Source of the DNA: a virus
Virus record (IMG/VR): IMGVR_UViG_3300030328_001986
Span: 1 to 22,439 of that record
DNA: 22,439 nt
Direction: 5' to 3' (one strand)
A model generated the notes under the pieces. It was not told the DNA's origin. It did no database searches and was given only the letters and a program-made list of their open reading frames with translations. Both the position numbers and the translations under genes were made by a program. Every line of letters begins with the position of its first letter. Positions within the stretch are counted from its first letter, which is position 1. This document shows, piece by piece, positions 1 to 15,509 of this stretch.

Positions 1-107
1 TAGTTAAACGCAAGTGGGTTCATACAACCTAATATAATAGGTATACATGTTCCATCGTCAACATTAGCAGAGTCAGCATAATTTAAAGCTGTTGAATCCA
101 TACAACC
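1..107 (-). repeat. Cys-pair repeats 5 and 6 of the MAM-domain protein (unit 6 cut by window edge)
   Basis: Unit 5 (residues 544-564) reads GCMDSTALNY followed by VDDGTC. Unit 6 starts at residue 570 with GCMNPLAFNY and is cut by the window edge. The repeats therefore continue into the next sequence. Confidence 0.8.
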
Positions 108-1736
108 AAAAATCTTTTCAATGCAATTATCACCACAATATGGCTGCGCATCATAAATCATATATTCAGGTGCTTCAAAGTTTTGCAATGCACCTTGTCC
201 ATTGTTATAAAATGGATTTGTTCCTTCAGCCATTAAAGTATCACCATAATCGTTTACGAGTGTAAATGAATTATGTAAAGTTTGAAAAGATACTTGAGCT
301 GGTGATTGTTGTCCTGTTGCTATTTCAAAATAATATACTTGAATCTCTTGATCTGTTCTTAAAGAATCTAACCAAAATGATTGAGAGAATATTCCAGGAC
401 CTAATCTAAAAGTTCTTTGTAAATGATTACCTTGTACTACACCTATATAAGAAGCGCCCCAACCATCTCCAGCATCATCTTCTAAAGTCAACCAATAGTT
501 ACAATAAGGTTCAATACTATTTTTAGTAGCTAACGAATCATAATTAAAAGCATTTGGATCAGTACAACCATAAGTATGTAGAGTTAAACAACTACCATCA
601 TCAACATTTGCTGAATCAACATATTCAACATAATCAGAATCAGTACATCCAAAGATGACAGTTGGTACGCAAGCTATAGGCCATTGAGCGCCTGAATAAG
701 CTACGTTGCCAAAATTAGGATTTGGTAATTGCCAAAGCGTATCACCATCACAATCCATAATTCTACAATCACCATCGTTAGTCCCACCAGTACCAGAACC
801 TGCTAAACCATCACCGTAACTATCATTTAATATAAACTCAAAACCAGTTAATGGTACGCATATACCATAGGTAAAAGTTTTATTTGCATCTGCGTAGGTA
901 TAAGATCCTTGTGTCACAGCATCAATTGGTTGTCCAGTACTTATATCAGTTAATATCCAACTTGTTTCACCAGGATAATCATCTAGTGTTAATATAATAG
1001 TTATTAAAGTTTCAAGAAGAGTATCACAATCTGTTATAATACAAGAACCATCATCAACATTGGCAAATGGATTATAATTATCAGCACCTGGATTTATACA
1101 CCCATATATATAAACACAGCTACCATTATTAATAGTAGCATTAGGATCGTAATTTGGGGCTATACTATCAGTACATCCAAATATAACAGGATATGGATCA
1201 CTAATCATTATATCATCAATAGCTATATCACTAGTAAAACTATAACCAGTAACACCTTCAAATGCTATTTTAAAATCATTTGTTATATTAAAGCTGTCTA
1301 AAGGTATGTATGCTAATTTCCATAAGTTTGCTTGAGGACCAGATATAAAGGCTATTGAAGTCCAAGCAGTATCTTCTACTATAAACACTTCTAAATCACC
1401 CATTGCAGCGCCATACATATGATACCAGAATGACAATACTTTACCAGGAGTTGCAGATACATCAAATTCAGGCGTATACTGTATAAAATCGTGGTTAGGA
1501 TAATTTGGTGTTGAAGATTCTATATATGAATAAAAACCACTACCAGTAGTATGATCACCCATAGGACCGGTATTAAAAGAACTTGTTGACCCTTGGTTTA
1601 ACCACCAATCACCATAATCATTAGTATCTTGTTCTAATGCCACAGTATCTTCAAAGCTATGAACCCAAGGAAAATTATTTATCTGACCAATACCTGTAAA
1701 GGGCAATAATAATAATAGTAATAATAGTTTTTTCAT
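1..1736 (-). CDS. Secreted MAM-domain protein with Cys-pair repeats (3' end outside window)
   Basis: The frame is open from the ATG at 1736 to the window edge (578 full codons, no stop), so the C-terminus is missing. It starts with a Sec signal peptide, MKKLLLLLLLLPFTGIGQ. Residues about 25-180 look like a MAM-type beta-sandwich: W-V-H-S-F-E near the start, then GPMGDHTTGSGFY at about 57-69, ending in an acidic D-I-A-I-D-D-I strand. From residue 187 come Cys-pair repeats (GCTD...NYD...GSC), separated by two beta-rich modules at about 233-362 (with YPGETSW and NDSYGDGL) and about 413-543 (with DDAGDGWG). In Bacteroidota such proteins are usually extracellular, T9SS-exported or adhesive; that role is inferred here. 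The start lies 2 nt after the stop of the Omp28-like gene, which supports co-translation. A tail fibre is a less likely alternative, because of the signal peptide. Confidence 0.88.
   Translation of the reverse strand, partial: MKKLLLLLLLLPFTGIGQINNFPWVHSFEDTVALEQDTNDYGDWWLNQGSTSSFNTGPMGDHTTGSGFYSYIESSTPNYPNHDFIQYTPEFDVSATPGKVLSFWYHMYGAAMGDLEVFIVEDTAWTSIAFISGPQANLWKLAYIPLDSFNITNDFKIAFEGVTGYSFTSDIAIDDIMISDPYPVIFGCTDSIAPNYDPNATINNGSCVYIYGCINPGADNYNPFANVDDGSCIITDCDTLLETLITIILTLDDYPGETSWILTDISTGQPIDAVTQGSYTYADANKTFTYGICVPLTGFEFILNDSYGDGLAGSGTGGTNDGDCRIMDCDGDTLWQLPNPNFGNVAYSGAQWPIACVPTVIFGCTDSDYVEYVDSANVDDGSCLTLHTYGCTDPNAFNYDSLATKNSIEPYCNYWLTLEDDAGDGWGASYIGVVQGNHLQRTFRLGPGIFSQSFWLDSLRTDQEIQVYYFEIATGQQSPAQVSFQTLHNSFTLVNDYGDTLMAEGTNPFYNNGQGALQNFEAPEYMIYDAQPYCGDNCIEKIFGCMDSTALNYADSANVDDGTCIPIILGCMNPLAFN
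501..650 (-). repeat. Cys-pair repeats 3 and 4 of the MAM-domain protein (unit 4 degenerate)
   Basis: Unit 3 (residues 363-383) keeps GCTD and VDDGSC but has E-Y in place of the central N-Y. Unit 4 (from residue 390) starts GCTDPNAFNYD but lacks the VDDGSC ending. Its partner Cys is displaced to about residue 412, at the start of the next beta module. The unit appears to merge into that module. Confidence 0.8.
1041..1178 (-). repeat. Cys-pair repeats 1 and 2 of the MAM-domain protein
   Basis: Residues 187-207 and 212-232 are two adjacent 21-residue units. Each begins G-C-(T/I)-(D/N), has N-Y at the centre and ends G-S-C. The conserved Cys pair (188/207 and 213/232) probably forms one disulfide per unit. 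Unit 1 ends INNGSC instead of the more usual VDDGSC. Confidence 0.85.
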
Positions 1737-1738
1737 TT

Positions 1739-2749
1739 TTAAAATTTAATAAATTTTTTCATATTTCTTATGTATATCGTATTCTTCTTTATATCTGTTA
1801 CAACTCTACCATAAAGATCATAAGTAACACCAGTGTGTTGACCGTTTGGTAGTATTTCCGCCCAACCAACAGGTGGAGGGGCTGGATAAGTAACGCTACA
1901 CCCGTTAGCTGTAACTATTTCTCCGTACTGACCTTCAGTTAAAAACGCAACAGCTTTTATATGCTCCATTTTAAACATAACGTCATTTATATATGTTGGT
2001 ACTGGGTAGAAGAATCTCTTAAATACAAAGTGACCAGGTCCTACTGGAGCCGGACTGTTGTTCACAGCTTCTCCCCATTGCCCAGCGATCATATCTCTTA
2101 ACATGTGTTGATGAGAATATGTTGGTTGCCATGGACCATTAATTATAGCACCTGGATTATAAGTAGAACCACCAACTTGTGGACCAGCAACACTATCTTG
2201 TGTTAACGCTACATTTATATAGTTTACTGGAGAAAATCCAAAACCATCTACTGGAGTTGAATCTGTATAATATATCTCTACATCTATAACTAAAGTCTCG
2301 TTAATTGTATCATGAACGGCTAAAACACCTACGTTAGCATAAGACGGTTGAGACATAAGATCTGTACAAGCGTCCATCCAATCGCTTCTACTCATAGCAC
2401 TACCACCTAATTGCGACCATGGAAAGCCAAATACTTTTCTATTTACTGACCCCGCTGGGTAACCAGCTATATTTGCTATTTCTGCAATACTATCACTTTC
2501 CATAATCCTAAAATCAGGTTCTCCAGGATTTGGAGATGCGTAACCACCAGTATGTAGGTTTACTAAAAACACATCGTTAGGATATGTGTTTTTTATTTGT
2601 TGTGCTATATAATGCCCATCAGGACAAAACACGCAGTGTATACCCGTAAACTCTTCTAATACAACTTTTTTGTTTTGTGCTGTTGTATCTACTATTAATT
2701 GTGCAAAAGATGCTAAAGGTAATAATAGTGCTAGTAATAAACTACGCAC
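1739..2749 (-). CDS. Omp28-like thioredoxin-fold secreted protein with T9SS-like C-terminus
   Basis: The open frame allows a TTG at 2773 (344 aa). I prefer the GTG at 2749 (336 aa), because it gives a clean signal peptide, MRSLLLALLLPLASFAQ, and an 8-nt GTGCGTAG overlap with the small ORF upstream, like the ATGAGTAA junction two genes earlier. After cleavage, VVLEEFTGIHCVFCPDGH carries a CxxC (Cys39/Cys42) in thioredoxin position, the signature of the Bacteroidota Omp28-related family. The middle is beta-rich. The last ~30 residues (TYDLYGRVV, then NTIYIRNMKKFIKF) resemble the end of a T9SS type A sorting domain. Inferred: a secreted or cell-surface protein with possible thiol-disulfide activity, exported by host machinery. 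It is co-translated with the MAM protein and may act on it. Confidence 0.87.
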   Translation of the reverse strand: MRSLLLALLLPLASFAQLIVDTTAQNKKVVLEEFTGIHCVFCPDGHYIAQQIKNTYPNDVFLVNLHTGGYASPNPGEPDFRIMESDSIAEIANIAGYPAGSVNRKVFGFPWSQLGGSAMSRSDWMDACTDLMSQPSYANVGVLAVHDTINETLVIDVEIYYTDSTPVDGFGFSPVNYINVALTQDSVAGPQVGGSTYNPGAIINGPWQPTYSHQHMLRDMIAGQWGEAVNNSPAPVGPGHFVFKRFFYPVPTYINDVMFKMEHIKAVAFLTEGQYGEIVTANGCSVTYPAPPPVGWAEILPNGQHTGVTYDLYGRVVTDIKKNTIYIRNMKKFIKF

Positions 2750-2828
2750 AGTTACACTCTTTACACCATCCAATACAAACTTTACCTAAAGTAAGTTTGC
2801 AAATTAATTTACATATTTTTTCTTTCAT
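2742..2828 (-). CDS. 28-residue Cys-rich mini-protein (putative)
   Basis: The ATG at 2828 begins 1 nt after the stop of the thioredoxin-like gene. The frame runs 28 codons to a TAG at 2744-2742, which overlaps the preferred GTG start of the Omp28-like gene by 8 nt. The product has six cysteines, with Cys at 6, 10 and 18 and then GWCKECNCA at the C-terminus, including a WCKEC (CxxC) motif. It is basic (six Lys). No family is recognised. Support comes from exact placement between two coupled genes and from composition; it could instead be only a translational bridge. Metal binding or a thiol role is speculative. Confidence 0.5.
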   Translation of the reverse strand: MKEKICKLICKLTLGKVCIGWCKECNCA

Positions 2829-2829
2829 A

Positions 2830-3156
2830 TTAAAAATCGCTCATTATTTGTTCGTTAATAAATTCTTGTATTTCCTTCCTTGTTGCAAGCATTTTAAAAC
2901 TAAGGTCTGCTTGATACCTTTTAATTTCTTCACCGTCTTTAAAAACGATTATAGTAGGTACTATAACCACTTTATGTTTTTGTTGTAATTTAGCTTCTTT
3001 CATTATATCGACCTTAGCTATATCACAATCAGATAACTTTTCTAGCCACTCAACTTTGTTAGCGGCATTCCATTCTGCGTTAAATTCTGTTACTACTATC
3101 TGAGCATTAGCAATCATACTAAATGTCATAAGTAGTGTTAGTATTATTTTACTCAT
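2830..3156 (-). CDS. Exported thioredoxin-fold protein lacking CxxC
   Basis: 108 aa with a signal peptide, MSKIILTLLMTFSMIANAQ. The rest follows the thioredoxin fold: strand IVVTEFNAEW, the active-site position, helix, strand IAKVDI, the cis-Pro loop VVIVPT (Pro67), strand IIVFKDGEEIKRY, and a C-terminal helix. In the place of WCxxC is W29-N-A-A-N33, so both catalytic cysteines are replaced by Asn. Only Cys44 remains. It is unlikely to be a normal oxidoreductase; a chaperone or binding role outside the cytoplasm is inferred. The ATG overlaps the stop of the upstream TM protein by 8 nt (ATGAGTAA), which points to translational coupling. Confidence 0.82.
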   Translation of the reverse strand: MSKIILTLLMTFSMIANAQIVVTEFNAEWNAANKVEWLEKLSDCDIAKVDIMKEAKLQQKHKVVIVPTIIVFKDGEEIKRYQADLSFKMLATRKEIQEFINEQIMSDF

Positions 3157-3427
3157 ATAGTTTGTCTTCTATTTTTTCTATAGATTTCTTAATCTCCTGC
3201 ACGTCCTCTTGAGTTGTCATAATAGTTTGACGAATCATTTGATCCTTCATGTCAAATTCCATTCTTGTAACATCTGGTGCTGGCGGAACTGGCAGTTCTT
3301 TGGCTTCAGCTATATCAGCTTGCAAAGCAAACCACATACCTATAATTGTAGCCATTGCAAAACCTATTGCTATTAATGTTTTTATACTAACTTGGAAGCC
3401 AGTGTCTTCGTTTAATTCTTTTCCCAT
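3149..3427 (-). CDS. Small single-TM protein with C-terminal coiled coil (holin/spanin-like position)
   Basis: The preferred start is the ATG at 3427 (MGKELNEDTGF, 92 aa), 1 nt after the nuclease stop. An in-frame ATG at 3445 would add six residues and overlap the nuclease. The short N-terminus is followed by one hydrophobic segment at about 15-36 (IKTLIAIGFAMATIIGMWFA), a Pro-rich linker ELPVPPAPD, and an amphipathic charged helix to the end (EDVQEIKKSIEKIEDKLYE) that should form a coiled coil. No enzymatic motif is seen. Size, topology and position after the internal-core and nuclease genes fit a holin-like or spanin-like membrane protein, but I cannot assign a family. Confidence 0.78.
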   Translation of the reverse strand: MGKELNEDTGFQVSIKTLIAIGFAMATIIGMWFALQADIAEAKELPVPPAPDVTRMEFDMKDQMIRQTIMTTQEDVQEIKKSIEKIEDKLYE

Positions 3428-3428
3428 T

Positions 3429-3797
3429 TTAACGTTTACCGCCATGATACTCTACAGCATGGCCTTCTTTAATTAATAATTCATTTACATTTATCATAGT
3501 AGGAGAATCTTTATCATCATAACTACTAACATACAACTCACCTAGTACTCTACCATATTTTCCTAAACCATGAGAATCAAGGTGTATTTCCCCAGCGGTT
3601 TCTAATATTTCTTTAAGTCTAGCTTTAGCAGCCAAACCTCTTACTTTTTCCTCTAAGTCTCTTGTTCTAGATTCTGGAGTGTTAATTCCTACGAATCTAA
3701 CACGTTTTTTTGTCTTGATTTCAAAACCAAGATCGATATAGCAATCTATAGTGTCTCCATCTATAATTCTGTCTAACTCTATTTTGTATTGATACAT
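3429..3797 (-). CDS. Staphylococcal-nuclease-like (SNase/thermonuclease family) nuclease
   Basis: The start is set at the ATG at 3797 (MYQYKIELDR, 122 aa), 2 nt after the preceding stop. A longer start at 3827 would add ten residues that overlap the upstream gene. SNase landmarks are in order: RIIDGDTIDCYIDLGF (Asp15 at the Ca-binding position), RVRFVGINTPES (Arg34 and Glu42, matching Arg35 and Glu43 of SNase), YGRVLGELYV (Arg83, matching Arg87), and NELLIKEGHAVEYHGG. The Ca ligand Asp40 of SNase is Asn39 here. There is no signal peptide, so the protein is presumably cytoplasmic. Likely role: DNA/RNA phosphodiester hydrolysis, perhaps host nucleic-acid degradation or genome processing. Family assignment is firm; role is inferred. 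Confidence 0.88.
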   Translation of the reverse strand: MYQYKIELDRIIDGDTIDCYIDLGFEIKTKKRVRFVGINTPESRTRDLEEKVRGLAAKARLKEILETAGEIHLDSHGLGKYGRVLGELYVSSYDDKDSPTMINVNELLIKEGHAVEYHGGKR

Positions 3798-3799
3798 AG

Positions 3800-4852
3800 T
3801 TAGAAGATTACATAGTTTATACCACACTTAAAATCATACCACTCTCTATTCCAATATTTGTTGTATTTACCTTCAACAAAAGTCCCTAAAGATTTGTTTA
3901 GTTTATAACCAAATATAATACCACCACTATAATCAAGCCATTGACCGTTGTTATACTTGTGATAAGAAAACTCACCATCAAGGTCTAAATGATAAGGCAT
4001 AATATTACCCCAAGTGTGAAGCCAGAATAATTTTGTGTAATGATAATAATCAAAACCTAACACAACAGAATGCTGGATTATTTGATCTAACTCGTCACGT
4101 TTTTTCTCTGCATAATCAGCTAGCACAACAGGTATAACAACCTCTTCCCAAACCTCCTTGCTTGTAGCTACTAACGACCCGTTTGGATCGAAGTATTCGT
4201 TGCTATACACATCCACCGTGTAACCCTCTTGTAAAGCTAAGTAAGTGTAATGTATATCTCCATTACTAAGCACCCATTCTTCTAACGGGTCATAACCATA
4301 AGGCTCAGATAATCTTTGAGCAAGACCAGTGTTAAAAGATAATTTATTATTAACTTTATACCTATATCTTTCCGATGTTTCAAAATATTTAATATCCGCA
4401 AAACCATCTTCTAAATATTCACCTTTTAATATATACTTATTATCTACAAATCTTATAAAATGATGCTGATCTAAATACTCATTACCCTGCTGTCTAGTAA
4501 AATCAATTTCAAATAAAAACTCAAGCCCAGAAACTTTACCAATATTAGCACCATCACTCCAAGAGTTTTCAGTACCATCGTAAAATGTTTGAGCTCTGTT
4601 TTCATAACCAAACCTTGCTATCTTACGTATACCAAAAGCCACGTTGTAATCAAAAGGGGTTTTGATAGTTGAGGTTTCTAATCCATTTGTTACAGAAAAT
4701 GTTTCAACGTCAGAAATAGATGTACCACCACTTGCGGCTGCGTAAAACGTAGCAAACTTAAAGTATTTTTTTAAATTTACTTGTGAGCAACAATCTTTTG
4801 GAGTTGCGCAAGAAATTAAAGTAATTAGAAATAGTATAATTATTTTTTTCAT
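3800..4852 (-). CDS. Outer-membrane beta-barrel-like protein with lipoprotein-type signal
   Basis: The start is the ATG at 4852 (349 aa), which gives the signal peptide MKKIIILFLITLISC with an LISC lipobox (Cys15). The start at 4936 would put 28 charged residues before the signal and overlap the giant gene. The mature part is rich in alternating aromatic/polar strands (KYFKFATFYAA, HHFIRFVDNKYIL, SVVLGFDYYHYTKLFWLHTW, GGIIFGYKL) and ends in ...YVIF, an aromatic terminus typical of outer-membrane barrels. Inferred location: host outer membrane. Function is unknown; masking of the receptor (superinfection exclusion) or envelope remodelling are possibilities. A virion role is less likely because of the signal peptide. 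The gene starts 10 nt after the giant gene. Confidence 0.84.
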   Translation of the reverse strand: MKKIIILFLITLISCATPKDCCSQVNLKKYFKFATFYAAASGGTSISDVETFSVTNGLETSTIKTPFDYNVAFGIRKIARFGYENRAQTFYDGTENSWSDGANIGKVSGLEFLFEIDFTRQQGNEYLDQHHFIRFVDNKYILKGEYLEDGFADIKYFETSERYRYKVNNKLSFNTGLAQRLSEPYGYDPLEEWVLSNGDIHYTYLALQEGYTVDVYSNEYFDPNGSLVATSKEVWEEVVIPVVLADYAEKKRDELDQIIQHSVVLGFDYYHYTKLFWLHTWGNIMPYHLDLDGEFSYHKYNNGQWLDYSGGIIFGYKLNKSLGTFVEGKYNKYWNREWYDFKCGINYVIF

Positions 4853-4862
4853 TATTTTTTTT

Positions 4863-7800
4863 TTAATAAGAAATTTTTCTTCTCGATCTTGTTGATCTTT
4901 TTTTGCTAGAAGTACGTTTTTTAGATTTATCTTCAATACCTAAGTTCCATTTTGTCCAACCCATCATTAACGCTATTCGTTGCCAAGCCTCCATATCTTG
5001 AGAAATAGCGTCTGACATATTTACTGTTTTTTGATGTAGTCGAGACAAAGGCACATTTGTCAATGCTTGTGTAAAAGAAAAACCAGCTTCCCAAGCAGGA
5101 TTTTTTAAATTGTAAAAAGGTATTTCTTCAACTAAATCTTTCTCCCATCTCAAAGTTCTTTCAGCGTCTCTAATTTTTCTCAACTTAATACCTAAAGGTG
5201 GAGATAGATTCACCATTTCCATAATTACAGCAGATTCGTCTTTATTAAATGATTTTTGCTGTTCTTTATAAAAAGCTCTTATCATATTTTTAAGTGTAGA
5301 AACAATAGCGCCTTGAACACCCATACCTCTTAATATACTGTCTATACTACCATTTAATACTCTTTCCTTCTTCTTGTCGAATTTTTCGTCGTCGTCATCA
5401 TCGTCAAACATCATAGCGAATAATGCTGTTTGTAAACTGTAAAATATTATATTTTGTACCGCGCCGTAATAAATTATTCTAGACACATTTGCTTTAGCAT
5501 CACCCCTACCATTTACAAGGTCTAACATTGCTTTCTTCATCAATCTAGCGTACTGCATTGGCGTGTTTTGGAAGGCTAGTATTATTCTACCAAGAACAGA
5601 AGCTTGTTGTTGAGAGATCATGTCAGGCCTTGCTGACTGTTGCGTTTCCTCTGCTATAGCTTGAAAATCTTGAAAAGCTTTTTCTTTAGCTTGAGAAATA
5701 CTCATGCCTTCTTTAACATACTTGTTAAACCTGTTTCTATAAAAACTAGCGCCACCCATAGCGATAGCAAAACTATCTGCAATTTGTGTAGGTAAAAATC
5801 CTTTTGATAATAAATAGTTTATAGCAGCTTTATATTTATTTGCTCCAGAACCTCTACTTGATATATAATCTGTTAGTTCACTAGCGTTAACATCAATGTT
5901 TAAACCAGAACGTCTCTGCTTTAGCATGTCAGAATTGAAAATCATTATGAAATCTGCCCAAAACTGTTTTTGATTAGCAAAAGCTTTAGCCGCGGCAAAT
6001 ATATTGTTATCTTGAAAGTTTATAAAATTAACCATTGACAACGTTTGTAGCACTGCTGATCTAGCGTTGAAGAACATGGTAGTACCAATAGATCCATTTA
6101 TCCAGTTCATAAAATCATTAACTAGCTTGTTGCTACCAAAACTTCTATTAGTACCATTTTCTATTCTATAAAGCATATCTTCTAAGGCCTCTCTAAACGC
6201 TTTACCATAAATAGCTTCTATTTTGTTCATGTTTTCTGGAGAAAATATAATTTTCATATTTTCTAAAAACTCTGCAAAAAATTGCTTTCTACCTACTTTA
6301 TCTGTAGCGTTTTTTAAATCAGCTCTAATATCTTCACTCAACCACGTAACTGTAGGTGGAACGTATCCATCTTTTTGCCTTGACAATATAGATAACATAT
6401 CTGCAAAAGCTTTTAATCTAGCGTCGTTCTTTACTGTTTCAACTAGCTCTTTTTGATCTGATTTTGATATACCAGGTATTTCAAACCCAGCTTTATCCCA
6501 CAAGTAAACTCTTATAGCGTCGTTGTAAGTAAAGTCACTATCACCTATAGTGTTAAAAAGTATTTTTTTAACATCAGGCATTTTTTTCTTTAACGCAGCA
6601 AAATCATTTGCTATAGCTTGTTTTGCTTTGTTTAAATCTCTATAAGCTCTATTCAAAGGATCAATTAATGTTTTCTTAAAAAACTTAAACTGTTTTTCAC
6701 CAAGCTTTCCTTTTCCTAAGAATTGATATATAAGACCAAGAAAATCTTCGGCCCCTGGTGGTATAAAAATATTAAACTTTCCTTTGCCCTCACCTCTTCT
6801 TCTAGCTTTAGCATCAGAAAAACGCTTGCTAGCCTCAGTACCAGTAGATTCTTCTAGTATTTCATTAAAGTCTCTGTCGAAATCAATGCTTTTACTAGAT
6901 ATAACTTGTTGTACTTTTGATTTTATATCCAATTGATCCAATACATTTTTAACGGCCTTAACATTAGAAAGAGCATCGTCTACAAAGTACATATCGTTAT
7001 AACCCTCGGTAAATTTATCAAGCATCCACATTGCCTTAGCCTCTCCAGTGCTATTACCTAAGCCTGTTATATTCTTCATAGGTATGTTAATACCTTTTGA
7101 TTTTAACCAACCATGTATCGCTACATCGCTTTCTTGCATTCTAGCCGTTAGTACAAACACGTTATTTGGTCCAAATTTCTTTATTTGGTTTTTCATTTTT
7201 TGTAATAAAGGACCATCAGTTCCACCACGAACATTTACAAAATCTTTAAAGTCAAATTTAAAACCTTTTTCTTGAAACTCAGGACCTTTAGTAGGCCACT
7301 CAGCACTACTTATCTTTGTCTTTTCACCAGTAACAGGGTCTATTGCTGTCACAAAGTTCTTCCCGTCAATAATTAGTGTTTCATCAAAATCAAAAGTACT
7401 CATACCTCTAGACTCTCTATTGTAATTAATAGAGTTTGCCAATCTAGTAAGTTCATTAATCTTTACATCTTGATCTATTTCATTTTTACTTTTTGGTAGT
7501 AAATCTGAAGCAACATTATGCGTTTCACCATAAACAACACCGTCCATTTTACCCTTAACAACATCTTCTATTAATCTTATAGGCTTAACGAAATCAAAAC
7601 CTAAGTTGTAATCGTTAAACATTCTACCAACCCAACCGTCTATATTTCCTGATTCATAACCATCATACATGAGGTACTTGAAACCTGCGGTGTCTAAAGT
7701 TCCATCCGCGTCTTTATTTATTATGCTAACCTTGTAATCAACATACTCGAGATCCATAGCAACTCTTTTGTTTTTTACTTTAGGATCTTGAGCTATTTTT

Positions 7801-10800
7801 ATTAACGACATTAGTAAAAATATAGCTGGTTTACTATGTTCAAATCTTATATTGTCATTGTTAAGTTCTCCTAACAAAAAGTCTCCATTACTATCAATTA
7901 TACCGTCCATTATACCAATTACCTCAGCACCTCTTCGCAAAGATGTTGTTGGGTTACTATTTAAAGAAACCATTTGTAAAACAAAATCATGCTCTGATAT
8001 TAAATTTTTGTTTAGTAAATCTGTAAAAAACAATATTTTATCTATAGTTAATTTTTGTGCAAGCTCAGATTCTTTACTAAACTCTTCTTGATCGTAGGTT
8101 GTAGCACCTTTACGTAGTTTTTCTCCTTTGCTAGACTTTATAGTACGCACCATTCTACCAATTACACCTTTACCATCTTTTGGCATTAAATCTAGACTAG
8201 AGTAAGATAACGAGGTATCAGAAGTGAATGCTGCTTTCTGCTCCTCTGTCATTTTAGCTTTAAAGTCTTCTCCTATAAAATTCCAAACCCACAATCTAAA
8301 ATCTAATTTAGCACCACCATCCTCTTTATTCGCCGCAAAGAACTGCTGTCTTTTAGTGCTTTTAGACGGTTTCTTTTTTATCTTCGTGTTAGTACCAGGT
8401 TCGTATACAAATGCCCCGTCGTTTATTTTATATGCAGTAGCGTTTTCTTGCTCGTACATGTATATCATGTCTAAAACCTCATCTACTGATATTTCTTTTT
8501 TAGTACCAATTCTTTTACGCCACTCTTTAAGTATACCGTTTTCTATAAAGTCAGCAACGTTTATTCTTGCTCTATCAACAGAGTCTACATCAAACAACTC
8601 ACTAACACTAGGTGCTTTCCCGTCTTTATTTTTTAATCCAAAAAACTCTATTAATCCTTCGTGTATATTTCCTTTACCTAACCATTTTTTAGCAAAATCT
8701 TCAAAAGATTCTATGTTTTTAACACCTTGAGAAGTTAATATTTCTTCTCTATATATGTATTGCATTATAACCCCAGACTCATTAAACATTTGACCTAAAA
8801 ATTCATTAGCTTGTTTTTTAGTCAAAGTACCATCTTCTGTGAAAACAGATCTTAAATAATTTATTTTTTGAGTTTTTGTCCAATTCTTATCTATCTCTTG
8901 AACTTTTATGCCTAATTCAGGCATTTTTAAATCAATAGACTCTTGAAGATCTGGGTTTTTAATGTAAAATATAGATTCAGCAAAATTAGACAACCCATCT
9001 TCTAAAGAGTTTTTAAGTCTCACGTCTAAATCACCTGTTGCTTCTAAATTTTTTCTATATTGCTGATTAGTTATAGTCCTATCCATAAGAGATAAAACAG
9101 CCAACAGTCTAGCGCTAGTATTTCTATCAACTCTAAAATCATATTTACCGTCAACTCTATATATACCTAGGTACTCTAAAAATTCCTTTTCAGATAAATT
9201 AGGTTTTTTGTATTGAGGATAATTGTTTTTAATTCTTTTTGAACCTTTATTATAACCAAACTTTAAAAGCACGCCAGGCATATTTGTTGATTTAAATGCT
9301 CTAGTATGTCCTTCGTTAAAAATAGCTGATAATATTAAACCAGGACCAACTTTAACAATAAATTGTTGTGCTGACCTAACTTCGTTGCTACCTGCTTTTG
9401 ACTCTTCTTTTCTTAAATTAGCTAAAAAGGTTTTGCTTCTTGGGTTTAATTTTTCAACATCAACACCAGACTCTCTAGCTAATATTTTATAAGTAACACC
9501 TTCTATATTACTTATAGACATATCATCAAAAGGATCAACAATTTCACCAGTTTTGTCATCAATTTTAAGCATATGCTTGTTCATGAGGTTTCTTTCTAGT
9601 TTGTTAATTTGCTCTTGCTCTTTTTCAGATAAATTTTCTTTACCTTTTAATTCTCTATACGATTTTAACTCTGATAAACCTTCTCTTATAATTGTATCGA
9701 CTTCTTCTTCTAAACCTATTTCCTTAGCAACGTTCTTCTTAGGAGCAACATGTCTATCCGCTGCATCAAAATCATCTGGAGTAGTGTCAGTATCAGTACC
9801 AGCGTCAGGTATTTGCCCAACCTTTTCATTATCTATACTTACACTACCTTCTATAGCACCCCTTTGTTCAGCTTTTAAAACATCACCAAACCTTCTTGGT
9901 AATAACATGTTTAAGTATGCACCAAATGGTACTAATGCTGGATCATAACTTTGTGAAAGACTTAATAGTTGATTTGAAAAACCTGATTGAAATTGGGTAA
10001 AAGAAATTCTTTTTCCTTCTTCTAATCCCATTATTTTAGGATTTTTAGCGGCAAAGTCAGATAGAGCAGTTACTAGTGCCATGTTGTTTAAAACTAAATC
10101 GTTCCTTAAATCTTCATCATATTCAAAAGTGCCGTCTTCAAGAACAATTCTAGTTTCTAAAAGCTCTTTTCTTATTCTATCATTTTCCTCTACTATTTTT
10201 CTTGTACTTTCTTTTAGTTTTAAATCACCTATAATTTCAGGCCTATCATATATATTTTTCTTAGTACGACCAGCCCTTGTAGATAAAGAACTAAACGCTA
10301 CGTTTTTATCCCATTGTTCAAGTTTTTTCTTTTTTTCTTCTTCACTTGCTTTTTCAGCAAAATCCATATCAACCTTGATATTTAAACCATTTTTAATGAT
10401 CTTTCTCATACCTGGTGAAAAGTTCTCTCTATCACCATCTAATAACTCGTCGTTGTAATCTTTTATAAAATTCATCATTTCTCTAGCTGGGTTTGTCCCA
10501 GGAAAGAAATCAATATTTATACCTACGTTTCTCAGCGTTCTTCTAACAACACTATGTAACTTCGTTAGCGTGCCATTGCTTATAGCAACGTCCCCTTGTG
10601 CCATTCCCTCTGATAAGACAGTGAACATCTCGTCCCATTCCATGCTTTCTACTTGTTTTTCATAACTAGCAAACTTACCAGTTACATACTTAGAACCCAT
10701 AATGAAACCGTACTTTGACGGATTTTTTAACAGCTCTTGTCTTAATAAATAAGACAATGCTTTTACTTTTTGAGCACCGCCCTTACCCTTTACAGTGTTA

Positions 10801-13800
10801 CGCATAACGGCGTGGAATATCTCGTGAACACCAACACCATAATTATCAGATTTGTTCATAGCGTCCTTATTTATAATAATTATATGGTCACCAGAGTAAT
10901 CGTCATAAAGTATAGTACCAACGCCTTTAAAATCTTTAATTTTTTGAGGCTTAATTTTTTTCTTTTTGCCTTTCTTTTTATTTTCTTCAGAAGCTTTTTC
11001 ATTTCTAGCTTGAATCTCAGCGTTAGCATTCATCACGTGCTTATTGTACTCCTCTTGGTTTTTCGCTTCGTAAACTTTTATGCTTATACCCATGTTGCCT
11101 AAAAGTTTCTTACCTCTTCTTATAGAGTTTTGATACAGTTCCTTTTTCCATTCATTTGGAGTAGATTCTTTTATCTTTACATCTAAAGCCTTTATCTTTT
11201 CGTTTATAGAATTTATTTCTTCTTCGTTAACAGTTTTATCTTTTTTAGTTAACTTATTTTTTCTCTCAATCAATTTGTTTTTTTCAACAAGATTGTCTAT
11301 CATTCCAACTGTTGCAAACTTACCCGAAGAGTTGTAAGCCTGTAAAGTTGCGTAAACATTGTCGTAGGCTTCTTTTTCTCTTTTGTATTCTTCTAAAAAT
11401 ATATCCCTTTTTGCTTTCCACTTTCCATTTTCAGGTCTTTTTAAGAAAAGCGTGTTGTAGTATTTATATTTCTTTTTTAATTCTTTCTGATTTACTACAG
11501 ATTGATCTAATATTTTACTCCCATGCTTATATATCTCAGCATTTAAGTATGTTTTTGTGTTCATAACTACTGAAGCACCTCTCCCCAAACCTAAACCACC
11601 AGCCAATATAGTTGTGCCAACAAGAACTTGTTGTTGAGCATTTACATCGGTAATTTCCTGAGAGTAGTTTGCTAACATACTACCTTTTACAATACCATTC
11701 AACGCTAAGTCGGCTTGCTCTTCAGCATGTTCCTTTAAAAAGTTTACACCAAACTCTCTAACCGCTTGTCTTCTAACTAAGCTCATAGCGCCTGGAACGA
11801 AAGACTGTTTAGTTGTTTCTCCAAAACTTTTTATTCCTTTCTTTTTTAAATCTTTAACAAAACCTTTTAATAAGTTTTTACCACCAAGAGTTTTAAAGAA
11901 GTTTATATCAGGCATTATTAACTGACTTATACCAGTTGCTAAGGCTGTTGCATTACCATATACAAACGCGTCCATACCACTCAGACCGTTTGCTCTACCA
12001 TCAGCAATATTCCCAAGTAAAAGCATTTTTTGATTAGCTTCAATCATTCTGAGTTTTGCAATATAACCTTTTGTAGGTTTCCAATTTTTATGCAAAGAAG
12101 CAACAATATCATCTCCCATTTTTCCAAGACCTAACTTGTTCATGCCCTTGTTAAACTGTGTTGACTTCTGCGCCATTCTTTTACCCATTTGCTGAGCACC
12201 ACCAATTAAGCTATGGCCTGTTTTACCATATTTCATTGTTTTAAGCGCTAAAACCCTAGTATAACCAAATAAATTAGCCGCTGTTTTACCAACGGTGTAC
12301 GTAGAGAAATTATAAGCTTCAGGATTTGTTAAGTCTTTAAATACATTACCACTAGGTTTGTCCACGCCTTTAAACAGCACGTCAATATTATTTGTTGGCA
12401 CAATGTTAGTAAAAGCCATACCACCTAAAAAATCAAACCACTGATCCATAGCGCTGTAACGGTCCTCATCTGGCGTGCTATCAAAAAAATCATATAAACC
12501 GGCGATTCCAGTACCAATAGCTAAAGCACCAGCGGTGTAAGGATTAGAAAGAAGTGAATACAAACCTTTATACCTGTATATTTCTTGATACCCAGTAGCT
12601 GCTATGTCAATAGTGGCGCCAAAAAAATTAGAGGTAAATTTGTCGTTGTACCACTCGTCAAACTTTTTGTTCTCTGCACTTCTTATAAAAGAAGATTGTT
12701 TGCTTATACCTATGTTTGGATCTAATAACAATCCTTCCCATAAATCTGTTTGGGCTTTTAACACAGAATCACTTTGGTTTAAAAGTTCTGTTTGTCTTTT
12801 TGTTAAATCAATTTGCGTTGATAATAAGTAGTCATATTCAACATCAAGATCTTTTATTCTACCATTTATATCAAAAAGCTTGTCCTTATCTTCATTGGTC
12901 ATCTGCCTTTTTATAGTAGACGGGAAATAAGCTTCCCTACCAGATGCAGTGAAAAAATAATCTCCATATCTATCTTTAACGGCTCTTAAGTCTTTATCAA
13001 CATCTTCTTTCTCAGTGTTAAAATCGGCATATCTATCTTCAAATTCTACTCTATCTTCATTAAATATAGTGGTAGCTTCGTTTATCTTTGCTATTGACTG
13101 GTCAAATATCTTCTGTTGTTTTTCAATAACATTAATCTTTGCCATTGTCACAACGTCTTCTTTTGTATAACCTGCGTTCCTAAACGCGGCCATATCACCT
13201 AGTCTAACTCTTTTTTGTATTTCCGGTGGCACTATGTTTAGTATCTCGTATTTCATAGCCTCCTCGAACTCTCCAAAGTCTAGCTCCTCTTTATGTGGTA
13301 TGTCTTTAAAAGCAAGATTAATCAAACCTCTTATAACGCTGTTACCAGAAGCGTCTTTTCTTTTCATAGTTGTAATCTCGTCAAAGAATTCATCTGCATT
13401 ATTAACATGCTTTTTGCTGTTATTATAATACGTGCCTTGATTTGCTGGTTGATTTTCCCTACTATTTACAAAAGCTTTTTTACTATTGTACAAGTCCCCA
13501 GGGCTCTCACCCTCTACGTACTCCCCATCAACTCCCACTGTGACAGAAAAACCATTCCCAACGTCTATTACTTTAGGTTTGCTTGCCGCCGCTTTTTTTA
13601 ACTTTTTCAAGTCTATATTATTGTTAATGGATAAATCAAGATCAACATCAGTGTATGTTGTACCGTCTTCAAAAGTGTAAGCCGTGTTTCCCATGTAACT
13701 ATCTACCTTATAGCTACCATGATCCGAAACTAAACTCTTAAGCACGCTCATTCTAGTTTTTGGCGCATCTGTTTCGCTAGCAGTTTCTGTTTCAACACCT

Positions 13801-15509
13801 ATATCATCATCATCTTCTTCTATCTCTACAATTTCTTCTGTAGGAGTTTCAATTTCTACATTTTCTGCACCCATAGAGAATATTGGTGGAGCTGGTGCTT
13901 CCTCTAAATTACTTTCTAAGTCTGATTTTTTACTTATTTCATTTAAAACTCCTTGTGGATCTTTTAAATACTGCTCAACAGTATAACCTTGTTTTTCTAA
14001 CGCCGCAACATATTTTGGGTTTTTAGAGTTTTCTAAAGCTTGCTTAGCAGATGGTAATACAAAGGGAGTGGACTCAGTTTCGTCCTCGTCTGTACCTGCG
14101 GTTGTAGTTGTAGTTGTGATAGATCCAGGCATAAGACTTGAAACTGCCTGCGTGTTTGGGTTGAATATAAAGTTAGTCTCCGCTTCGTTTTCATTGGCTA
14201 CATAATTAATCTCGTTGCCAAAATCTAAAGGATAGTTTTTGTTTTTAAAAATATTGCCACTACCTTTTTCTTTTTTAACTTTTTTCTTTTTGTTTTCTTC
14301 TTTTTTAACAATTTCTTCCTCTTCTTGATTTTTACCATCTTTCTCAGATTCTTCTATAGCTTTTAAATACCTCATTTTAGCTTTCATATAACTTCTAGAA
14401 TCTGTAAAATCACCGTAGTTTGGTTTTAAAGGTAGCTGAGTAGTTGCATCGGCCTCTAACACTTCTTTGCTAACAATAGGATCTGCTGTTATTGGCTTAA
14501 GATCTTTTTCTTCTACAGGTATTTCTTTAACAGGTAGTGTTTTTACTACATCAGGACCAGCTTCTCCACCACTTACAGTTACCTCGTCAAGAGTACCAGC
14601 ATCATACGTAGTGTCGTCAACAATATCTTCTTCTTTTTTCTTTTCTTTTTCCCAATCTTCCTTTTTTGGAAGTTCTGTAGTAATTGTGGGCGTTGTTTCG
14701 CCAGGTTTAGGCCCTTGATCTTCTGGACCAACTGGTCTTCCCTCCATGTCTGTTGGGTACTCAGTTCCAGCAATGTGTGTATCTGGATCTTTAGAGATAG
14801 GAAGAGGTTTAGGTCCTTTGTGAGTCGTCTTTTGAGATGGGTCATCAAGAATTGTTAAAGGCTTATAGTACATGTTGATTATAGAGTCTTGATAACCAAC
14901 ACTAGTAGCGTAGCCCGCGTCTTGAATCTTTTTTATTTGAGCAACCGCATCATCACCTTCTTTTATACCACCAAACTTAGCCCACCATCTAACTTGATGG
15001 TCTATACCTTTTTGCGGTGTATCAAAAGTTAAAAAGGGCTGTCCAAGATTTGCTGTCCAAATTTCTTGATCACCCTCCATTCTTTTTGTTAAATAAGTTT
15101 TGTTACCCTTTTTTTCTTCTGCTTTTTTATAAGCAAGATATTCTTTTTCTGATTTAAAATCTTCATGAGTACCCATTGATGTCCAACCAGATATATCTTT
15201 TCTACCAGTAGGCGTCTTTCCACCTTTCCAAGCTTCTATTTGCACATCGCTGGCTTTTAAACCACCAAAATTATTATGACCAAAAGACAGGCCTGACACA
15301 CCCCACTCTGACTCTTTTATCATTTGAGCTAAAATTAATTTAGGGTCTAAATTTGTAGCGCCTTCTTTATATTCACCTTTTTTATGCATTTCTACAGCAT
15401 TTTCTACCATAGGTAAATAATACTCTACAAAACTATCTTGAAAAGCTTTTTTTTCTGTTTTGCTTAACGCTTGGTATTCTTTTCTATTAAGTTGCTTAAA
15501 TTCAGCCAT
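4863..15509 (-). CDS. Giant internal virion/ejection polyprotein (glucosaminidase, HExxH, sigma-2-like, HAD)
   Basis: 3548 aa, uninterrupted. Order: glucosaminidase-like domain ~25-222; acidic/Lys-rich low-complexity linker ~225-620; helical middle with hydrophobic Gly/Ala stretches at ~993-1010 and ~1297-1312; coiled coil ~1380-1450; HEIFH metalloprotease-like motif 1562-1566; sigma-70 region-2-like segment ~1800-1892; HAD phosphatase-like domain ~2700-2870; conserved-looking helical C-terminal region with a hydrophobic segment ~3345-3368, six Asp at 3369-3374, and a Lys/Arg/Ser tail. Its position after gp14-like and gp15-like genes, plus an N-terminal wall hydrolase, matches the layout of T7 gp16, the ejected core protein with transglycosylase. 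Phages with such large multi-domain 'polyvalent' proteins are known. Inferred: packaged in the virion and ejected into the cell, opening peptidoglycan and delivering effector domains. Cleavage into smaller products is possible. Confidence 0.9.
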   Translation of the reverse strand: MAEFKQLNRKEYQALSKTEKKAFQDSFVEYYLPMVENAVEMHKKGEYKEGATNLDPKLILAQMIKESEWGVSGLSFGHNNFGGLKASDVQIEAWKGGKTPTGRKDISGWTSMGTHEDFKSEKEYLAYKKAEEKKGNKTYLTKRMEGDQEIWTANLGQPFLTFDTPQKGIDHQVRWWAKFGGIKEGDDAVAQIKKIQDAGYATSVGYQDSIINMYYKPLTILDDPSQKTTHKGPKPLPISKDPDTHIAGTEYPTDMEGRPVGPEDQGPKPGETTPTITTELPKKEDWEKEKKKEEDIVDDTTYDAGTLDEVTVSGGEAGPDVVKTLPVKEIPVEEKDLKPITADPIVSKEVLEADATTQLPLKPNYGDFTDSRSYMKAKMRYLKAIEESEKDGKNQEEEEIVKKEENKKKKVKKEKGSGNIFKNKNYPLDFGNEINYVANENEAETNFIFNPNTQAVSSLMPGSITTTTTTAGTDEDETESTPFVLPSAKQALENSKNPKYVAALEKQGYTVEQYLKDPQGVLNEISKKSDLESNLEEAPAPPIFSMGAENVEIETPTEEIVEIEEDDDDIGVETETASETDAPKTRMSVLKSLVSDHGSYKVDSYMGNTAYTFEDGTTYTDVDLDLSINNNIDLKKLKKAAASKPKVIDVGNGFSVTVGVDGEYVEGESPGDLYNSKKAFVNSRENQPANQGTYYNNSKKHVNNADEFFDEITTMKRKDASGNSVIRGLINLAFKDIPHKEELDFGEFEEAMKYEILNIVPPEIQKRVRLGDMAAFRNAGYTKEDVVTMAKINVIEKQQKIFDQSIAKINEATTIFNEDRVEFEDRYADFNTEKEDVDKDLRAVKDRYGDYFFTASGREAYFPSTIKRQMTNEDKDKLFDINGRIKDLDVEYDYLLSTQIDLTKRQTELLNQSDSVLKAQTDLWEGLLLDPNIGISKQSSFIRSAENKKFDEWYNDKFTSNFFGATIDIAATGYQEIYRYKGLYSLLSNPYTAGALAIGTGIAGLYDFFDSTPDEDRYSAMDQWFDFLGGMAFTNIVPTNNIDVLFKGVDKPSGNVFKDLTNPEAYNFSTYTVGKTAANLFGYTRVLALKTMKYGKTGHSLIGGAQQMGKRMAQKSTQFNKGMNKLGLGKMGDDIVASLHKNWKPTKGYIAKLRMIEANQKMLLLGNIADGRANGLSGMDAFVYGNATALATGISQLIMPDINFFKTLGGKNLLKGFVKDLKKKGIKSFGETTKQSFVPGAMSLVRRQAVREFGVNFLKEHAEEQADLALNGIVKGSMLANYSQEITDVNAQQQVLVGTTILAGGLGLGRGASVVMNTKTYLNAEIYKHGSKILDQSVVNQKELKKKYKYYNTLFLKRPENGKWKAKRDIFLEEYKREKEAYDNVYATLQAYNSSGKFATVGMIDNLVEKNKLIERKNKLTKKDKTVNEEEINSINEKIKALDVKIKESTPNEWKKELYQNSIRRGKKLLGNMGISIKVYEAKNQEEYNKHVMNANAEIQARNEKASEENKKKGKKKKIKPQKIKDFKGVGTILYDDYSGDHIIIINKDAMNKSDNYGVGVHEIFHAVMRNTVKGKGGAQKVKALSYLLRQELLKNPSKYGFIMGSKYVTGKFASYEKQVESMEWDEMFTVLSEGMAQGDVAISNGTLTKLHSVVRRTLRNVGINIDFFPGTNPAREMMNFIKDYNDELLDGDRENFSPGMRKIIKNGLNIKVDMDFAEKASEEEKKKKLEQWDKNVAFSSLSTRAGRTKKNIYDRPEIIGDLKLKESTRKIVEENDRIRKELLETRIVLEDGTFEYDEDLRNDLVLNNMALVTALSDFAAKNPKIMGLEEGKRISFTQFQSGFSNQLLSLSQSYDPALVPFGAYLNMLLPRRFGDVLKAEQRGAIEGSVSIDNEKVGQIPDAGTDTDTTPDDFDAADRHVAPKKNVAKEIGLEEEVDTIIREGLSELKSYRELKGKENLSEKEQEQINKLERNLMNKHMLKIDDKTGEIVDPFDDMSISNIEGVTYKILARESGVDVEKLNPRSKTFLANLRKEESKAGSNEVRSAQQFIVKVGPGLILSAIFNEGHTRAFKSTNMPGVLLKFGYNKGSKRIKNNYPQYKKPNLSEKEFLEYLGIYRVDGKYDFRVDRNTSARLLAVLSLMDRTITNQQYRKNLEATGDLDVRLKNSLEDGLSNFAESIFYIKNPDLQESIDLKMPELGIKVQEIDKNWTKTQKINYLRSVFTEDGTLTKKQANEFLGQMFNESGVIMQYIYREEILTSQGVKNIESFEDFAKKWLGKGNIHEGLIEFFGLKNKDGKAPSVSELFDVDSVDRARINVADFIENGILKEWRKRIGTKKEISVDEVLDMIYMYEQENATAYKINDGAFVYEPGTNTKIKKKPSKSTKRQQFFAANKEDGGAKLDFRLWVWNFIGEDFKAKMTEEQKAAFTSDTSLSYSSLDLMPKDGKGVIGRMVRTIKSSKGEKLRKGATTYDQEEFSKESELAQKLTIDKILFFTDLLNKNLISEHDFVLQMVSLNSNPTTSLRRGAEVIGIMDGIIDSNGDFLLGELNNDNIRFEHSKPAIFLLMSLIKIAQDPKVKNKRVAMDLEYVDYKVSIINKDADGTLDTAGFKYLMYDGYESGNIDGWVGRMFNDYNLGFDFVKPIRLIEDVVKGKMDGVVYGETHNVASDLLPKSKNEIDQDVKINELTRLANSINYNRESRGMSTFDFDETLIIDGKNFVTAIDPVTGEKTKISSAEWPTKGPEFQEKGFKFDFKDFVNVRGGTDGPLLQKMKNQIKKFGPNNVFVLTARMQESDVAIHGWLKSKGINIPMKNITGLGNSTGEAKAMWMLDKFTEGYNDMYFVDDALSNVKAVKNVLDQLDIKSKVQQVISSKSIDFDRDFNEILEESTGTEASKRFSDAKARRRGEGKGKFNIFIPPGAEDFLGLIYQFLGKGKLGEKQFKFFKKTLIDPLNRAYRDLNKAKQAIANDFAALKKKMPDVKKILFNTIGDSDFTYNDAIRVYLWDKAGFEIPGISKSDQKELVETVKNDARLKAFADMLSILSRQKDGYVPPTVTWLSEDIRADLKNATDKVGRKQFFAEFLENMKIIFSPENMNKIEAIYGKAFREALEDMLYRIENGTNRSFGSNKLVNDFMNWINGSIGTTMFFNARSAVLQTLSMVNFINFQDNNIFAAAKAFANQKQFWADFIMIFNSDMLKQRRSGLNIDVNASELTDYISSRGSGANKYKAAINYLLSKGFLPTQIADSFAIAMGGASFYRNRFNKYVKEGMSISQAKEKAFQDFQAIAEETQQSARPDMISQQQASVLGRIILAFQNTPMQYARLMKKAMLDLVNGRGDAKANVSRIIYYGAVQNIIFYSLQTALFAMMFDDDDDDEKFDKKKERVLNGSIDSILRGMGVQGAIVSTLKNMIRAFYKEQQKSFNKDESAVIMEMVNLSPPLGIKLRKIRDAERTLRWEKDLVEEIPFYNLKNPAWEAGFSFTQALTNVPLSRLHQKTVNMSDAISQDMEAWQRIALMMGWTKWNLGIEDKSKKRTSSKKRSTRSRRKISY
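6900..7412 (-). other. HAD-superfamily phosphatase-like domain of the giant protein
   Basis: Residues ~2700-2870. Motif I is STFDFDETLI (Asp2707 and Asp2709). Motif II is NVFVLTARM (Thr2788). The acidic motif is MYFVDDALSNVKAV (Asp2844, Asp2845). Order and spacing are those of an HAD hydrolase, and all catalytic positions I can place are present. Substrate unknown. Confidence 0.78.
9834..10112 (-). other. Sigma-70 region-2-like segment of the giant protein
   Basis: Residues ~1800-1892 follow the order of conserved positions in sigma region 2: NDLVLNNMALVTALSDFAAK (compare the N-L-x-L-V helix), FTQFQSGFSNQLLSLSQSYD (compare the Q-x-G...L-x-x-A...F/YD core), PFGAYLNMLLPRRFGDVLK (compare F-S/G-x-Y-A...I-R-x-x-I), then EQRG and a short SVSID. 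The likeness is by eye only, and the -10 recognition residues are not clearly conserved. A helical structural domain is the alternative. Confidence 0.42.
10590..10922 (-). other. HExxH zinc-metalloprotease-like segment of the giant protein
   Basis: Residues ~1530-1640. VHEIFHAVM places the HExxH at 1562-1566, preceded by a strand-rich stretch (GVGTILYDDYSGDHIIIIN). The helix SMEWDEMFTVLSEG downstream offers Glu1627 as a possible third zinc ligand, as in gluzincin-type proteases. The pattern is good, but the family is not identified. Confidence 0.6.
14844..15437 (-). other. N-terminal glucosaminidase-like (GH73/FlgJ-type) domain of the giant protein
   Basis: Residues ~25-222. LDPKLILAQMIKESEWGVSG carries the probable catalytic Glu66, in the family pattern of a hydrophobic helix followed by E-S-x-W-G-x-S. 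HNNFGGLK (79-85) matches the usual NNxFGIK segment. Later come FLTFDTPQKGIDHQVRWW and GYATSVGYQDSIINMY, the last matching the YAT...Y...I motif of such hydrolases. Predicted to cleave glycan strands of peptidoglycan during genome entry. Confidence 0.8.

Follow-up and report, generated by a model that had tools for sequence, protein, structure and literature searches.

The stretch of DNA analyzed here, referred to throughout as the window, covers positions 1-22,439 of a viral record 52,100 bases long (IMGVR_UViG_3300030328_001986), and window position 1 coincides with the end of that record. The part of the record outside the window has matches to PHROG terminase, portal, virion structural, holin and GroEL families, and the record is therefore a tailed-phage contig. 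Its terminase resembles those of phages of Flavobacterium, Cellulophaga, Tenacibaculum and Maribacter (87 records, with <60% identity in all but one), and the host of the virus is probably a Bacteroidota bacterium. At locus L003, a phage-record GroEL gene was observed at 6203-7774 (phrog_5725, E 6e-133), and a GroES-like protein was read by eye at 5959-6216. The features of the window considered in this study are collected in Table 1.

Table 1. Genes and protein features at the left end of the window (window coordinates; units and modules belong to the MAM protein).
Feature	Position	Strand	Basis
3,548-aa backbone protein, upstream of the cassette and outside it	4863..15509	-	ORF, neighbor comparison
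OMP378, predicted exported outer-membrane beta-barrel; likely start near 4852 by eye	3800..4936	-	Model, homologues
Staphylococcal-nuclease-like protein	3429..3827	-	PF00565 E 3.9e-10, phrog_452 E 3.5e-35
sp98, one-pass membrane protein with coil-like tail (topology by eye)	3149..3445	-	Neighbor comparison
Exported thioredoxin-fold protein, WNxxN in place of WCxxC	2830..3156	-	PF00085 E 9.5e-8
Omp28-like exported protein, CVFC motif, 344 aa, 2 bases upstream of the MAM gene	1739..2773	-	NF033782
Secreted MAM and Cys-pair-repeat protein, 578 aa, C-terminus missing	3..1736	-	Open at contig end
Signal peptide, residues 1-18	1683..1736	-	Sequence, by eye
MAM domain region, residues 19-182, no cysteines	1191..1682	-	PF00629; fold match of homologue L005
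Cys-pair units 1 and 2 (1116-1178; 1041-1103)	1041..1178	-	Sequence
Beta module 1, DDYPGETSW...YGDG type	666..1028	-	Sequence, alignment
Cys-pair units 3 and 4 (588-650; 501-569), unit 4 irregular	501..650	-	Sequence, alignment
Beta module 2	117..494	-	Sequence, alignment
Cys-pair unit 5 (45-107) and start of unit 6 (3-29)	3..107	-	Sequence

An initial annotation had described a signal peptide, a MAM-type domain and six Cys-pair repeats arranged as 2 + 2 + 2 with beta modules between them, and this architecture was confirmed on the minus strand at positions 3-1736, where the reading frame runs off the contig, so that the C-terminus of the window copy is unreadable. The N-terminus, MKKLLLLLLLLPFTGIGQ, was recognized by eye as a Sec signal peptide, and PF00629 (MAM) matched residues 28-179 with an E-value of 1.1e-22 and a score of 81 bits against a curated cut-off of 26.4. 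Animal-type MAM domains have conserved disulfide cysteines; residues 19-182 of the window protein contain no cysteine at all, which sets its domain apart from the animal type in this respect. The Cys-pair units begin at residues 187, 212, 363, 390, 544 and 570, and five of the six are complete, the sixth having only its first cysteine before the contig ends. A regular expression recovered five units; when the letters of the protein were shuffled 2,000 times, it counted 0.21 on average and never more than 3, and the repeats are thus not due to chance. Unit 4, described at the outset as degenerate and merging into the following module, indeed has a shifted second cysteine and continues into the next beta module, an irregularity shared by the 14 other rows of alignment A1. 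PHROGs contained no family for the MAM, Omp28-like or OMP378 proteins.

The same gene recurs in related phage contigs. Two scans of viral contigs returned 23 and 39 loci, with some contigs in both, and 30 complete, distinct homologues were aligned (A2); cut or broken copies lie outside this alignment (L004, L020-L022, L121, L122, L124, L132 and L135), and L023-L026 of the first scan have part of the MAM domain alone in common with the others. All 30 complete homologues carry PF00629 and, by a crude hydrophobicity test, a signal peptide, and each contains 11-28 Cys-pair units as counted by regular expression. The order in 26 of them is two units, a beta module, two units, a second beta module, a long array of units, a CC..WD..C module and a tail; in L127, L128, L136 and L137, units 1 and 2 are separated by approximately 100 additional residues. 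The 2 + 2 + 2 layout, accordingly, is correct for the window and is the start of a longer array in complete proteins. Identity between the window protein and the complete homologues of the first scan is 45-49%, and on the MAM tree the window protein forms a pair of its own with the copy on the closest contig (L004), which is likewise cut. An AlphaFold model of one entire homologue (L005) was of poor quality, with a mean pLDDT of 48.4 and values >60 mainly in the MAM region, in the beta modules and over the C-terminal ~30 residues; a model of L005 matched the solved MAM domains 8yt7 and 5l73.

The view of this gene as encoding a secreted, surface-type protein within a phage operon was strengthened by the C-termini of the complete homologues, which carry Bacteroidota T9SS sorting tails. 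TIGR04183 (T9SS type A) matched 10 of the 30 complete homologues and 15 of 36 further repeat proteins (E up to 0.01; 25/66 overall), PF18962 gave equal counts (10/30 and 15/36), and L009 scored above both curated cut-offs (35.6 vs 23 bits and 39.5 vs 27 bits, respectively). The other 20 homologues end in a short tail of ~40 residues with the form KKLIMITDLLGRPxKxxKNxLLFYIYxDGTVxKKLIK, which neither TIGR04183 nor PF18962 called; alignment A3 combines 18 of these 20 with two neighbor proteins. The mechanical ORFs of the viral loci have 4,641 distinct ends; two tail models, one built from the 20 short and one from the 10 canonical sequences, matched 74 of them, a count that includes the building sequences, which match by construction. 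Seventy-one of these matches fell on repeat-rich ORFs (44 short and 27 canonical), and the remaining three, all short, were a fragment of a frameshifted ORF, an Omp28-like protein and a 169-aa exported protein. The gene for the 169-aa protein lies immediately upstream of the MAM gene (L007/L008, 9343-9852).

The short and canonical tails occupy the same place in otherwise similar proteins. The CC..WD..C module precedes the tail in all 71 tailed repeat proteins, at a distance of 56-62 residues from the C-terminal end where the tail is short and 87-93 residues where it is canonical, the short form being ~32 residues shorter. On a 30-tip tree of the protein body (approximately the first 530 residues), tail kind switched eight times, with at least six switches forced by well-supported branches; shuffled tail labels gave a mean of 8.6 changes, and 202 of 500 shuffles were as low as the observed value, so that the two kinds look interchangeable. 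Profile comparison with hhalign gave 69.6%, a score of 25.3 and an E-value of 4e-5, as against 14.5 for the best of 60 column shuffles, the aligned parts of the two tails being the DLLGR strand and the lysine-rich strand at the very end. When applied to five phage records, the short-tail profile was positive in the two short-tailed and silent in the three canonical-tailed ones. Bacterial genomes encode the short tail rarely (0/6, 1/46 and 1/395 genomes, with up to 18 candidates scored per genome among the 395). The sole match of the profile in 46 Bacteroidota genomes was an SBBP beta-propeller protein that likewise ends in the short tail (L138, E 1.5e-11), and its three matches in the 395 Bacteroidota genomes were a short-tailed GH16 enzyme (L139, E 7.2e-14) and two proteins bearing PF18962 tails (L140 and L141, E 1.9e-5 and 6.9e-4); six further bacterial genomes gave none. 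SprA, a core T9SS protein, is encoded in all four genomes with a match. A YPNP-type pattern count of bacterial tails (37/91) missed tails visible by eye and was set aside. Based on its position, its exchange with the canonical tail, the profile similarity and the host proteins that bear it, the short tail is, at the level of sequence, a relative of the canonical T9SS type A tail. A minimal tail is plausible: according to a review (PMC10202324), GFP is secreted by the T9SS when it carries no more than the final 22 residues of the HBP35 tail, with motifs D and E. With its 45-49% identical relatives serving as proxy, we infer that the window copy also has a T9SS tail.

Export signal and tail occurred together with few exceptions. 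Among 84 complete repeat-rich ORFs, 73 had both, two had a signal only, two had a tail only and seven had neither. The signal-only pair (L124 and L163) are both frameshifted, and the tail-only pair consists of the later L124 fragment and L221, the start of which is apparently wrong. The crude signal test was positive in 75 of the 84 ORFs; applied to 739 ORFs of at least 150 aa, it was positive in 235 as well. The splitting of the repeat protein by frameshifts in L124 and L163 may represent assembly error or decay. The seven ORFs with neither signal nor tail (426-1,560 aa, at five loci of cassette-bearing phages) are particle-like by eye and indicate that secretion goes with the tailed protein type and not with the repeat as such. 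Large signal-less proteins with several Cys-pair repeats are encoded at L126 159-4685, L127 899-5254, L173 3402-8084, L177 2569-6912 and L183 2345-6943. The large signal-less proteins are probably particle proteins, so that the same repeat would be used both inside and outside the cell. The heads of 71 repeat proteins comprised 38 of the YPSETSW beta type, 29 MAM domains, three others and one fragment, and the N-terminal head of non-MAM members looks similar by eye to beta module 1. Another cargo protein (L203) matched, in parts, just six of 50,697 phage records, and its match to a 'virion structural protein' gene of Synechococcus phage S-CAM3 involved the repeat alone (31% over 14% of the query, E 7e-4).

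These distributions bear on whether the protein might be a virion component, that is, a tail fiber or decoration that binds the next host through its repeats and beta modules and whose signal peptide serves periplasmic assembly or attachment after lysis. Such a role would fit the variable heads on a conserved stem, the presence of the repeat in the S-CAM3 gene and in the large proteins without a signal that cassette phages encode, and the location of the MAM gene in relatives near endolysin and fiber-like genes (the latter so judged by eye). We nevertheless consider it unlikely: signal and T9SS tail are found together in 73 of the 84 ORFs, the four mixed cases being frameshifts or matters of start choice; the seven repeat proteins without a signal are also without a tail; and the window protein has no PHROG match. 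Homologues occurring solely as tail fibers, the outcome that the initial annotation had set against its own proposal, were not seen, although the repeat does extend to the signal-less phage proteins and the S-CAM3 gene.

The repeat protein is encoded in a cassette together with an outer-membrane barrel, a one-pass membrane protein and a thioredoxin fold without cysteines. At least 537 stretches of viral contigs are related to OMP378, and the best 80 of them were fetched. At all 43 of these best-80 loci with at least 4 kb beyond OMP378 (39 distinct OMP378 sequences), sp98, thioredoxin-like and repeat-rich or MAM-protein-like genes lie nearby, in the order barrel, sp98, thioredoxin-like protein and repeat protein in 33 cases, the other 10 being rearranged or having a second repeat gene; the adhesin gene is usually last in the cassette. 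The nuclease gene, which lies near OMP378 in 12 of the 43 loci, is a frequent neighbor rather than a constant one. Where a locus extends 8 kb or more upstream (68 loci), a homologue of the 3,548-aa gene precedes the cassette in 52 and is absent from the other 16, and the cassette therefore occurs on at least two genome backbones. In tblastn searches of 50,697 phage records, from which records very near that of the window may be absent, no match was found for the MAM protein or OMP378 at E 1e-5 or for sp98 at E 1e-3. Runs of small lysine-rich proteins, perhaps DNA-binding as judged by eye, are present between the thioredoxin-like and MAM genes at L006 8098-10004, L008 6839-9343 and L012 7981-9868.

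On the basis of its structural model (pLDDT 61.8), OMP378 is predicted to be an outer-membrane beta-barrel, the best match being to PcoB (7pge) with a Z score of 12.7 over 150 residues at 3.0 A. We rejected the possibility that it is a PorP/SprF or PorV homologue: hhalign gave 5.2% and 0.2%, respectively, compared with 77.3% for the control comparison of PorP with PorV. Models of PorP and PorV were absent among the NCBIfam matches of OMP378. In the fold comparison, the PorV chains 8gl6_F and 6h3i_F reached Z scores of 8.4 and 8.2, and many barrels unrelated to them ranked higher. A lipobox-like start with a twin cysteine (C-x-x-PK-x-CC-x-Q or similar) was observed in OMP378 and in the MAM proteins L009, L114 and L134 and is not universal. 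In the thioredoxin-like family, CxxC is missing from 94 of 95 sequences, including the window copy; the active-site cysteine positions are occupied by Asn in 91/95 and 90/95, and every one of the 95 retains Pro-Thr in its cis-proline loop. Replacement of both active-site cysteines by Asn suggests a binding or chaperone role for this protein as opposed to a redox one. The Omp28-like protein scored below the cut-offs of both models that it resembles (NF033782, E 1.6e-21 and 76.7 vs 150 bits; PF11551, 33.4 vs 34.9 bits) and ends in a still shorter T9SS-like tail at about 1742-1822 (alignment A3). It is likely, from its sequence, a second T9SS cargo protein beside the MAM gene. Relatives of the Omp28-like protein were found at L142, L145 and L151, and its C-terminal part at L004.

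The initial annotation had suggested that the MAM gene was acquired from a host, and a recently acquired surface gene, passive in the phage or serving the fitness of the host, would be in keeping with MAM domains and T9SS tails being domains of a bacterial kind. A scan of a genome collection detected 122 relatives, and the 80 best of these, at 79 loci, matched the MAM domain at up to 48% identity; within these 80, L039 extended to query residue 312 and L040 to residue 255, and none matched the whole protein. Both scan patterns lie in the MAM domain, and bacterial relatives with other heads would consequently have been missed. In a MAM phylogeny of 33 phage rows and 34 rows hand-picked from 91 bacterial ones, the phage domains formed one group (100/100), apart from the bacterial rows, on a stem of 1.6 changes per site. 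This single deep clade argues for an old phage gene rather than a recent acquisition, and the gene looks like an old resident of phage genomes; if it did come from bacteria, the acquisition would have been old and, as far as the MAM tree shows, single. The suggestion of host acquisition, at least in its recent form, is thus opposed by the deep phage clade, by linkage of the gene to the cassette, and by the lack of a whole-length bacterial homologue in a scan limited to MAM-bearing proteins. In addition, OMP378 was found in 0 of 395 Bacteroidota genomes, a set with no positive control among them and with up to five candidates scored per genome among those shown. We regard a recent host origin as very improbable.

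We therefore favor, with a probability of roughly two-thirds, the interpretation that the gene encodes a large, disulfide-rich phage adhesin that is cargo of the T9SS and is displayed on, or shed from, the infected Bacteroidota cell. The Sec machinery of the infected cell would take up the adhesin via its signal peptide, disulfides would form in the periplasm, and the presumed T9SS of the host would recognize the C-terminal tail and move the protein across the outer membrane, after which it would be held at the surface or released. Carriage by the T9SS is probable in light of the tails, and retention at the surface is somewhat favored over release alone. The barrel and the redox-dead thioredoxin could serve as anchor and chaperone of the adhesin, a contact that is hypothetical. 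An adhesin so displayed might mask or alter the surface against competing phages or keep released progeny off debris; alternatively, it might promote adhesion to a new host or attach to virions. Of its purposes, a change of the host surface is the one we put forward, tentatively, with receptor masking or exclusion of competing phages as the most likely form; otherwise, adhesion between cells or to virions would be its function.

A broader and rather doubtful proposal is that the cassette is a dedicated phage surface-display system, with OMP378 as anchor, an inner-membrane partner, a redox-dead thioredoxin chaperone, a modular adhesin and a minimal, previously undescribed T9SS tail, which would re-coat the cell before lysis and be common, on two or more backbones, among Bacteroidota phages not yet cultivated. 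The same export evidence would also accommodate jamming of the T9SS, or receptor replacement, in which abundant phage cargo occupies the secretion system or its carriers and the surface adhesins used by other phages go undisplayed. Two cargo-like genes stand in tandem in the window, and gliding adhesins are exported by the T9SS according to the review cited above (PMC10202324). Jamming would, however, have no need of a large conserved adhesive body, and a late-gene position, as judged from neighboring genes, would leave it little time; we hold it to be quite improbable.

Phage-borne T9SS cargo as such is already in print, and it is the cassette, the architecture of the adhesin and the interchangeable short tail that appear to be new. 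Cargo genes of this kind have been reported in Cryophage (PMC7468147), where they encode an endoglucanase, a GH39 protein and a PA14 protein and are termed variable genes; here, by contrast, we find a MAM/Cys-pair adhesin, a four-gene envelope cassette and an additional short tail. The crAss-like BACON phages of cluster 2 likewise have phage ORFs with T9SS sorting domains, theirs being near head genes and built of BACON repeats, with no such cassette described in the accessible part of that paper (PMC6949934), whereas the present proteins are composed of MAM, beta and Cys-pair modules. The combination of signal peptide and C-terminal sorting domain, found in 25 of 66 scanned homologues, is that of Bacteroidota T9SS type A cargo, from which the present case differs in that the gene is viral and in that 44 of 71 tails are shorter and escape TIGR04183 and PF18962. 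Clustering of a cargo gene with an outer-membrane beta-barrel gene recalls SprB-SprF-type cargo/carrier pairs; those pairs, in the accessible parts of PMC10202324 and PMC12635249, have type B tails and PorP/SprF barrels, whereas the tails here are type A-like and OMP378 has no detectable PorP/SprF or PorV homology. A search of the literature on phage T9SS, phage MAM domains and the repeat motif, with most subscription papers and all preprints outside its coverage, returned no report of the cassette, and one on the repeat motif and on MAM domains in Bacteroidetes phages returned nothing relevant.

Through the present analysis, what had been scattered reports on a single cryoconite phage and on some of the crAss-like phages becomes a conserved module of wide distribution, which provides a precise target for the question of whether phages re-coat infected cells. 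The interchangeable short tail would flag host and viral T9SS cargo missed by current models and helps to narrow the requirements of the T9SS secretion signal. The genome of a 642-kb uncultured phage (LR756502.1 325931-326140; L224) also matched the C-terminal 69 residues of L203, if weakly (E 4e-4), and T9SS-type tails may therefore occur in huge phages as well.
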